Under the pieces are notes generated by a model. The model was not told the DNA's origin and did no database searches. It saw only the letters and a program-made list of their open reading frames with translations. A stretch of DNA of 64,000 nt from Natrarchaeobaculum sulfurireducens (lineage in GTDB: Archaea; Halobacteriota; Halobacteria; Halobacteriales; Natrialbaceae): positions 682,001 through 746,000 of the forward strand of contig NZ_CP024047.1 in NCBI RefSeq assembly GCF_003430825.1, given 5' to 3'. Position numbers and translations under genes: made by a program. The stretch's first letter is position 1, and each line of letters starts with the position of its first letter. Shown here in pieces: positions 1,841 to 10,667 of this stretch.

Positions 1841-2167
1841 TCACCCGACGAAAGTGACGACGAACAGAAAGCCGAGATACGCCACCAGCGCGCCAATCAC
1901 GAACGAGAGAACGATCGATGGAGCGACGAGCGCCCCGACGGCGATACCCACCAGTGAAAAGGCGATGGCGGCGGCCTGGACGAGCGACCGGTCCCAGTAG
2001 CGTCGGACGAGGGCACGCTCTCGAGTCGCGACGGCCTCGAACACCAGGGTGCCGACGCCGCCCGCGACGCCAGCGGCTATCGAGAGCGACGCCTCGACGA
2101 ACACGACGGCGACGACGGCGACAGCCAGGACGATTACGGCGAGTGCCGCGTCGCGACGGGATCCCAT
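1841..2167 (-). CDS. Small multi-pass membrane protein, unknown function
   Basis: A 108-residue, very hydrophobic protein with two hydrophobic stretches in the first 50 residues, a charged central loop (ATRERALVRRYWDRS) and two more hydrophobic stretches, so about four membrane segments. No family-defining motif is visible. It starts 13 nt after the stop of thrB on the same strand, which suggests a shared transcript, although the function need not be related to threonine synthesis. Confidence 0.65.
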   Translation of the reverse strand: MGSRRDAALAVIVLAVAVVAVVFVEASLSIAAGVAGGVGTLVFEAVATRERALVRRYWDRSLVQAAAIAFSLVGIAVGALVAPSIVLSFVIGALVAYLGFLFVVTFVG

Positions 2168-8995: not shown

Positions 8996-9026
8996 GTCGG
9001 TCTTCTCGTTGGAACGGCGACGGCGC

Positions 9027-9034
9027 GTATACTT
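9027..9034 (-). promoter_or_regulatory. TATA-like element for the MFS gene
   Basis: Reads AAGTATAC on the minus strand and ends about 32 nt upstream of the ATG at 8995, so a very short leader is expected. Confidence 0.45.
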
Positions 9035-9097
9035 AGCCCCACTGGTACAACGAGCGCGACCACACACGACGAGTCGATCACCCGAGGACTATAGTAG

Positions 9098-9310
9098 CCA
9101 CTGCACGTCAGTGCGCACCTGCTCGCCAGTCGGATTGGCGATCAGTGTGCAACTCGGTGCAGTTGTTACTAGGGGCCGTCCGAAGCCCTGTGAGTGGGGA
9201 CGGGAACTCGGAAGAACCAGATGGTTGAGGGACGATAGCATCAACCACGTTAATGAAACCCATTGCCGAACCTTGAAATCTACAGAACTGACGTGCAAGG
9301 AGGTAACGCC
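9098..9310 (+). ncRNA. Structured non-coding region; possible IS200/IS605 (TnpB) end remnant or sRNA
   Basis: The gap between the divergent MFS and oxidoreductase genes holds strong secondary structure. Three nested stems pair CTGCAC (9101-9106) with GTGCAG (9157-9162), GCGCAC (9113-9118) with GTGTGC (9145-9150, one G-U), and CGCCA (9124-9128) with TGGCG (9136-9140). A second perfect 7-bp hairpin pairs TGGTTGA (9222-9228) with TCAACCA (9241-9247). A consensus AAGGAGGT Shine-Dalgarno-like sequence follows at 9297-9304, before a GTG at 9311 whose frame runs into the next gene. Structured ends of haloarchaeal TnpB-type elements and of MITE-like derivatives look similar, but no TnpB gene is present. 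The assignment is uncertain and the strand is a guess. Confidence 0.3.
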
Positions 9311-9399
9311 GTGAAACGTTGGTCGACTTTCCTCGGTATCGAACGACGTACGTTTCGACGTTTCAGCTCGAGGGAGCGGATAGACGAGATAGCAACCGA

Positions 9400-9407
9400 C
9401 TTTAACC
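9400..9407 (+). promoter_or_regulatory. TATA-like element for the FAD/NAD oxidoreductase
   Basis: CTTTAACC centred about 26 nt upstream of the ATG at 9429, giving a leaderless transcript. It lies inside the frame that opens after the Shine-Dalgarno-like sequence at 9297-9304, which argues that the upstream frame is not a real gene. Confidence 0.45.
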
Positions 9408-9428
9408 CGGATTACGAACCATCCGGAT

Positions 9429-10667
9429 ATGACTCAGTACGTTATCATCGGGGACGGGATCTCGGGCAGTTCAGCTGCTGAGACACTCCGGGAAGAGGAC
9501 CCGGACGCCGACATCACCGTCATCACCGATGAGGGGGAGCCTTTGTACAACCGCATTCTGATCAAAGAACACGCGAAAGGCAAGCTTCCCGAAGCGCCGA
9601 TCTCGATCCACGACGAGGAGTGGTACGACGATCGCGACATCGACCTCTCGCTCAACACCCACGTCACGACGGTCGACACCGACGAGAAGGTCGTCCGGAT
9701 TTACGACGGCGAGGACATCGCGTACGACAAGCTCCTCGTCGCGACGGGCGGAACCCCGACCCAGCTGCCGGTCGAGAACAGCGACGCCGACGGTATCCAC
9801 CACTTCTGGACGTTCCAGGACGCCCGCCGGATCCGCGAGAGCGCCGAGAACTCCGAGCAGGCAGTCATCGTTGGAGCCGGCTTGCTCGGAATCGACTTCG
9901 CCGCCATCTGTGGCGCTCAGGACGTCGAGGGCACGTACCTGATGCGCGGCGACCGCTGGTGGCGCTACGCGCTGACGAGCGAAGGTGCGGAGATTATGCA
10001 CCAGGCGATGCGCGACGTCGGCGTCGAGCCAGTCTTCGACAGCGGTGTCGATCGGTTCGAGGTCGACGACGATGGCTACGTGACGGGCGCCGTCGATCCG
10101 AACGGCGATCACTATGCATGTGACTGGGCCGGCGTCGCCATCGGCCTGACGTTCAACACCGAATTCCTCCAGGACACCGACGTCGAACAGAACAACGGCG
10201 TCGTCGTCGACGAGTTCATGCAGACGAACGTCGAGGACGTCTACGCGGCCGGCGACATCACCCGCTTCTACGACGTACTGCTCGGTGAGCAGGCCCAGAA
10301 CGGCTCCTGGGGCTCGGCAAAAGAGCAGGGCCGGGTCGCTGCCGTCAACATGGCCGCCGACGACGAGACGGAGGAGTTCAAGTGGGTCTCTTCGTACTCG
10401 ATCACGCACTTCGACTTCCCCTTCCTCTCGTTTGGCCACCCGACGATCGGCGACGAACACGCCGAGCGCAAGTATTCGGACACCGAGTGGCGTCGCATCG
10501 CCTTCAAAGACGGCAAGATCGTCGGCGGTGTCCTGATCGGCGATCTCTCCCCACAGAGCAAGTTCAAACAGCTCATGCGCGAACAGCGCGTCGTCGCCGA
10601 CCAGACAGAGGTCCTCCTAGAGCAGTCCGTCGACCTGGACGACCTCGCGCCCGCACAGGAGCAGTAG
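9429..10667 (+). CDS. NAD(P)/FAD-dependent oxidoreductase (NirB / rubredoxin-reductase-like)
   Basis: A 412-residue pyridine nucleotide-disulfide family flavoprotein. The N-terminal FAD Rossmann motif is IGDGISGSSAAE (7-18), the NAD(P)H motif is VGAGLLGIDFAA (148-159), and the second FAD contact is VYAAGDITRF (about 272). There is no CxxC redox pair, so it probably passes electrons to another protein, as in NirB- or rubredoxin-reductase-like enzymes. The next co-directional gene, about 180 nt on, encodes an NrfD-type membrane subunit. A functional link to the quinone pool is a reasonable inference but not shown. Confidence 0.85.
   Translation: MTQYVIIGDGISGSSAAETLREEDPDADITVITDEGEPLYNRILIKEHAKGKLPEAPISIHDEEWYDDRDIDLSLNTHVTTVDTDEKVVRIYDGEDIAYDKLLVATGGTPTQLPVENSDADGIHHFWTFQDARRIRESAENSEQAVIVGAGLLGIDFAAICGAQDVEGTYLMRGDRWWRYALTSEGAEIMHQAMRDVGVEPVFDSGVDRFEVDDDGYVTGAVDPNGDHYACDWAGVAIGLTFNTEFLQDTDVEQNNGVVVDEFMQTNVEDVYAAGDITRFYDVLLGEQAQNGSWGSAKEQGRVAAVNMAADDETEEFKWVSSYSITHFDFPFLSFGHPTIGDEHAERKYSDTEWRRIAFKDGKIVGGVLIGDLSPQSKFKQLMREQRVVADQTEVLLEQSVDLDDLAPAQEQ

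Follow-up and report, generated by a model that had tools for sequence, protein, structure and literature searches.

The hairpin at 9089-9174 of the window (the whole 64,000-nt stretch of Natrarchaeobaculum sulfurireducens DNA analyzed here) is very likely a non-autonomous miniature transposable element (MITE), in an old copy that can probably no longer move; its 80-bp palindromic core lies between duplicated TA target bases. It is assigned to the IS630 type because TA is duplicated at CTAG and because its ends and target are common to the ISNma7/ISNpe3 group of IS630 elements. The first-pass annotation had spoken of a transposon end or a MITE-like derivative, which was the right neighbourhood, although the unit proved to be a complete miniature element and not an end: it is short, lacks a transposase gene, bears a terminal inverted repeat (TIR) at both ends and is present in many dispersed copies (Table 1).

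Table 1. Coordinates of the MITE copy in the window and of long-form copies elsewhere.
Feature	Position	Strand	Basis or remark
Complete MITE copy with flanking target bases	9089..9174	+	86-nt unit; at least 66 genomic copies, 42-copy alignment, covariance model R1
Target TA, left copy of the duplication; the C of CTAG precedes	9090..9091	.	Analogy with the sister-species empty site (C-TA-G / C-TA-[80 bp]-TA-G)
80-nt core, TAGTAGCC...TTACTA; imperfect hairpin with symmetric internal loops	9092..9171	+	Folds; cross-genome pair counts
Left TIR, TAGTAGCC	9092..9099	+	Same bases as the ISNma7-group IS630 consensus end
Right TIR, imperfect (TAGTAACA), reverse complement of the left end	9164..9171	-	
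Long-form copy L247, G000:C3	2081075-2081200		
Long-form copy L248, G000:C3	1065460-1065586		
Long-form copy L249, G000:C3	996294-996413		
Long-form copy L250, G000:C3	2176585-2176710		
Long-form copy L251, G000:C3	1728753-1728884		
Long-form copy L252, G000:C3	27480-27604		
Long-form copy L108 (G043)	1950-2072		Same oxidoreductase gene downstream as for the window copy

The nested stems previously noted at 9101-9162 are real, and folding showed a longer pairing, from about 9092 to 9171, within the element. The RNA fold of 9090-9320 (+) reached -81.4 kcal/mol (z -2.35), with 2 of 200 shuffles as low, while the 86-nt window copy folded alone forms a single hairpin of -44.4 kcal/mol, which was found again in the other genomic copies. 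The 86-nt consensus of 42 aligned copies (CTATAGTAGCCACTGCACGTCAGTGCGCACCTGCTCGCCAGACGGATCGGCGATCAGTGTGCAACTCGGTGCAGTTGTTACTATAG) likewise forms a single long hairpin (CTATAGTAGCC...GTTACTATAG). When the 42 copies were folded automatically as a consensus, a spurious 11-pair structure resulted; since both the copies and the consensus adopt the hairpin when each sequence is folded singly, all pair counts were made on it. The window copy is without the right-hand TA-G and reads CTAGGGG. It had been remarked that neither flanking gene explains the structure, and rightly so: the neighbours are an MFS transporter (-) and a Pyr_redox_2/rubredoxin-reductase-type oxidoreductase (+), the latter followed by an NrfD-like gene. 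Rfam gave no match, either for the window at the gathering threshold or for 9000-9430 at E up to 1, and a tRNA scan detected none.

Comparison of a sister-species pair led to a filled and an empty site. The filled site of G065 reads GACCATC-TA-[TAGTAGCC...GGCTACTA]-TA-GTCGTC and the empty site of G064 reads GACCATC-TA-GTCGTC, with flanks 98.8 and 97.2% identical, a core of 80 bp, a net gain of 82 bp, CTAG as target and TA as duplication. A 121-bp variant occupies a second site, whose empty form is GGGGA-CTAG-TCCC. Other, more diverged empty sites read TTAG, TCAG or CCAG, several of them TCAG or CCAG rather than CTAG or TTAG. Two congeners (G034 and G036) have no match to the element at the site that corresponds to the window copy, where intergenic DNA is too diverged for a base-exact junction; G034, with only about 25 kb of synteny, is likewise too diverged between genes for exact junctions. 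Duplication of TA is a mark of the IS630/Tc1-mariner superfamily, and insertion at the TA of CTAG with its duplication is what the sister-species pair displays. Such duplication has been shown in vitro for ISY100, and Tenzen and Ohtsubo (1991), cited in the same work, state in their title that IS630 prefers CTAG (PMC2170065). Two side observations concern single copies. At G061:C6:94601-94766 two MITE copies stand head to tail with a boundary hexamer common to both, as if one copy had been inserted at the end of the other. Furthermore, a copy in G064 (region coordinate 131199-131284) is represented only by its outer ends in G075:C3 near 22300, with a flank about 98% identical, which suggests a deletion through the hairpin.

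The insertion sites also bear on the proposal of a TnpB-type guide RNA or an IS200/IS605 end. IS605 elements and palindrome-associated PATEs abound in haloarchaea (PMC3119063), and palindromic structured DNA would suit an end of this type, a PATE or an orphan omega RNA; nevertheless, IS605-type elements and PATEs have neither target duplication nor terminal inverted repeats (PMC3119063). Here true TIRs are present and match the ends of DDE_3 IS630 elements, Rfam offers no match, and the duplicated TA at CTAG means that the empty site already contradicts this reading, to which we assign a negligible probability. We give as little credence to a REP/RAYT-like palindrome mobilized by a Y1 tyrosine transposase. 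Such repeats are short, palindromic, intergenic and present in many copies, as is our element, but the TA duplication at CTAG, the TIRs spanning the whole unit and the existence of a DDE element with matching ends speak against them. The three Y1 loci of the genome are far from the copies and have no significant similarity to them, and no link to a Y1 transposase as helper was seen.

The MITE was very probably moved by the enzyme of a full-size IS630-type jumping gene with the same ends, and from those ends (eight core TIR bases plus TA) and the target we infer the ISNma7 group as its helper. DDE_3 (PF13358) genes or elements were detected in 75 of the 125 genomes of the family. In 30 of the 32 DDE_3 loci examined, the gene lies within an element of about 1,060 bp with both ends TATAGTA..., a uniformity that is not independent, given that these first seven bases belonged to the search pattern. 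The IS630 consensus ends and those of the MITE coincide for ten bases (TATAGTAGCC, namely TA plus TAGTAGCC), an identity by which the MITE shares its ends with an autonomous element, and the reconstructed target of the 1.06-kb elements is CTAG in 25 of 30 cases. Public records annotate these elements as IS630-like ISNma7 or ISNpe3 (Natrialba magadii, Natrinema pellirubrum). In contrast to the MITE, they encode a DDE transposase in two overlapping frames, and their internal sequence is unrelated to it. The window genome contains no full ISNma7-group copy, only one 80-bp relic of its end (contig C2), and seems to have lost the full-length helper element. It does hold another IS630 subgroup, in four copies, with ends that share only TATAGT with the MITE; since this group begins in the same way, the superfamily of the helper can be named with more confidence than the helper itself. 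Mobilization by a transposase outside the ISNma7 group, for instance from another haloarchaeal IS630 subgroup, has a low probability, as further IS630 elements begin TATAGT and 50 of the 125 family genomes are without a DDE_3 match, yet 118 carry the MITE. However, the ISNma7-group match is four bases longer (AGCC) and includes the CTAG target, and the absence of the helper is explained if it was lost once an old burst was over, leaving a relic.

The other subgroup itself is about 1.13 kb long, with ends TATAGTGATG, and its four nearly identical copies (G000 C1:49475, C2:55897, C2:64453 and C3:3334278) suggest recent activity in the window genome. Elsewhere, a full IS630 element sits inside a MITE copy at an internal CTAG (GTGTGTAA-CTAG-TTGCAGTT; L213:1358-2510) and another inside a long-form MITE copy after the same GTGTGTAAC stretch (L234:795-2010). 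Some MITE subtypes therefore carry a target for their presumed helper.

Far from being an orphan, the window copy is one of at least 66 in its genome. A whole-genome search with 9085-9330 matched about 40 places with the first part of the query only, to about 9171-9181, while the covariance model retrieved at least 66 places at E < 1e-6, all on the main contig, a lower bound from a search in which 150 candidates were scored. Homologues elsewhere, on which the first-pass annotation had made its reading depend, were found in the genome, the family and the class: 118 of the 125 genomes of the same family (28 of 29 genera) and 137 of the 391 genomes of the class, in five families, have matches. 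The element is also borne by 28 haloarchaeal plasmid records (Natrialba, Natronorubrum, Natrinema, Haloarcula, Halomicrobium and others). None of the phage records searched holds it, and one IMG/VR contig matches exactly over 17 nt by chance, no element being present there. Although about 87% of the genome is coding, all 42 copies examined lie between genes (by a simple codon-usage gene caller), which fits selection against gene disruption. Convergent, divergent and tandem gene pairs flank 17, 16 and 9 copies, against about 21, 14.5 and 6.7 expected by intergenic base pairs; there is no bias, and nothing in this placement points to the copies acting as terminators or promoters. The distribution has some peculiarities. 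The smaller contigs C1 and C2 (267 kb, 7% of the genome) have none of the at least 66 copies, for which the chance is estimated at about 0.8%, whereas two Natrialba magadii plasmids have 16 and 12 element places. The element is absent from all six genomes of genus g2 (G001-G006), five of which are also without DDE_3 genes among those listed.

Concerning the structure, copies within the genome and sequences from different genomes behave differently. Among the 42 copies of the window genome, bases pair in 87.8% of cells versus 88.0% in shuffled columns, and divergence is equal in stems (9.8%) and loops (9.4%). The copies are star-like, lying 8.7% from the consensus with a mean pairwise divergence of 15.1% versus 16.4% expected for a star. 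Taken together, pairing no better than shuffled, equal decay of stems and loops and the star indicate that the structure is not being maintained in individual copies; the one in the window resembles an inert fossil. In a set of 38 sequences, with most genomes contributing a single one, 95.4% of cells conform to these pairs. Two-sided compensatory cells number 34 versus 9.6 shuffled, under a control that does not remove relatedness, and the covariation score of 0.140 versus 0.079 was reached by none of 500 shuffles, with relatedness among the sequences again left in. Examples are CTGCAA/TTGCAG changing to CTGAAA/TTTCAG and GCC/GGC changing to GCA/TGC. The compensatory changes anticipated in the stems are thus strong between genomes and missing among copies within the genome. 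Pairing seems to be kept along the mobile lineage and not where copies come to rest, and covariation between genomes without preservation of pairs within one implies that the hairpin seems to matter to that lineage. The comparison separates selection on the mobile master from neutral decay of its copies, and this contrast is a useful control for covariation-based RNA claims in repeats.

A long stable hairpin with strong covariation between genomes could also be read as a functional structure in an RNA or mRNA, be it an sRNA, a leader, a terminator or a stability hairpin, spread by duplication and kept for regulation. We consider this highly improbable, since within the genome pairs are kept no better than in shuffled columns and stems diverge as much as loops, which likewise makes the stand-alone sRNA proposed earlier unlikely. 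Furthermore, gene-pair orientation shows no bias against the intergenic background, the element is absent at the orthologous site in two congeners, and Rfam has no match. If "functional" is taken to mean selected at most sites, the reading is already refuted.

As an IS630-type MITE, the element would be bound at its ends by the DDE (IS630/Tc1-mariner) transposase of the ISNma7 group, which would excise it and paste it into CTAG or TTAG sites, and host repair would then duplicate TA. Master copies would keep the hairpin by compensatory changes, pairing or the symmetry it reflects being needed for spread, while an inserted copy would have no function and decay neutrally. It is a rather doubtful step further to say that the hairpin itself, beyond the short TIR, is required for spread, with masters of different haloarchaeal families keeping their pairing by compensatory change throughout the 80-bp core. 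If true, the folded or extruded strand, or the full palindrome, would be read by a host factor or in a step of IS630-type transposition, which the standard cut-and-paste model does not include.

Among known systems, the closest in kind is RUP, the repeat unit of pneumococcus, which is 107 bp long and mobilized by IS630-Spn1 (PMC2229807, PMC3049150). Both are short and gene-less, with TIRs matching an IS630-family element, a TA target and a hairpin fold, and RUP has about 100 intergenic copies. The present element differs in its unrelated sequence, archaeal host, almost wholly palindromic unit and CTAG target, as well as in its presence across several haloarchaeal families and its old and diverged copies in the window genome. 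It is of the same kind as RUP and, by analogy, would work like it. Correia/NEMIS elements of Neisseria also have TA termini, a long stem-loop and short and long forms, of about 107 and 155 bp with an internal 50-bp segment (PMC2229807), compared with 86 and 126 nt here, but they differ in sequence and host. The longer form of our element, about 120-130 bp, has an extra inner hairpin around GCGGTTCGGAGCGAG...GAACCGCG and recalls the short and long Correia forms. Haloquadratum walsbyi harbors MITEs and small mobile repeats (SMR-A, about 110 bp, and SMR-B HqIRS41, 80 bp), which are similarly haloarchaeal, short, TIR-bearing and without coding capacity (PMC3119063). Judged by their description, the SMRs are the nearest haloarchaeal relatives. 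They are reported to lack target duplication and to have TIRs unlike any transposon, SMR-A targeting IS605 ends (PMC3119063), whereas our element duplicates TA and its TIR matches IS630; both features contradict membership in a comparison of published descriptions, and identity with the SMRs keeps some probability. The kind of element, an IS630-type MITE, is therefore known, and the family is new to the papers searched; as most subscription literature and ISfinder were outside that scope, it may be noted elsewhere. None of these papers names ISNma7, ISNpe3 or "haloarchaeal MITEs", and the Natrialba magadii genome paper reports no MITE. With the element named, its copies in haloarchaeal genomes need no longer be taken, one after another, for regulatory hairpins or orphan RNAs; the covariance model finds it across families, and ISNma7-group IS630 is supplied as helper candidate.

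The region downstream of the MITE had been described as part of the same structured element. The 7-bp hairpin TGGTTGA/TCAACCA (9222-9228/9241-9247) and the Shine-Dalgarno-like site AAGGAGGT (9297-9304) are indeed in the sequence, but they are single-copy and unrelated to the MITE: with 9085-9330 as query all other genomic matches end by about 9181, and 9175-9379 has no match in 29 orthologous loci. By a hand estimate, chance alone would give about 0.4 perfect inverted repeats of 7 bp per 200 nt. Further on, window positions 9379-9428, 50 bp upstream of the oxidoreductase start, are highly conserved in the family (96% identity in several other genera) and hold a ACTTTAACCC stretch resembling a promoter, with the MITE lying well outside.
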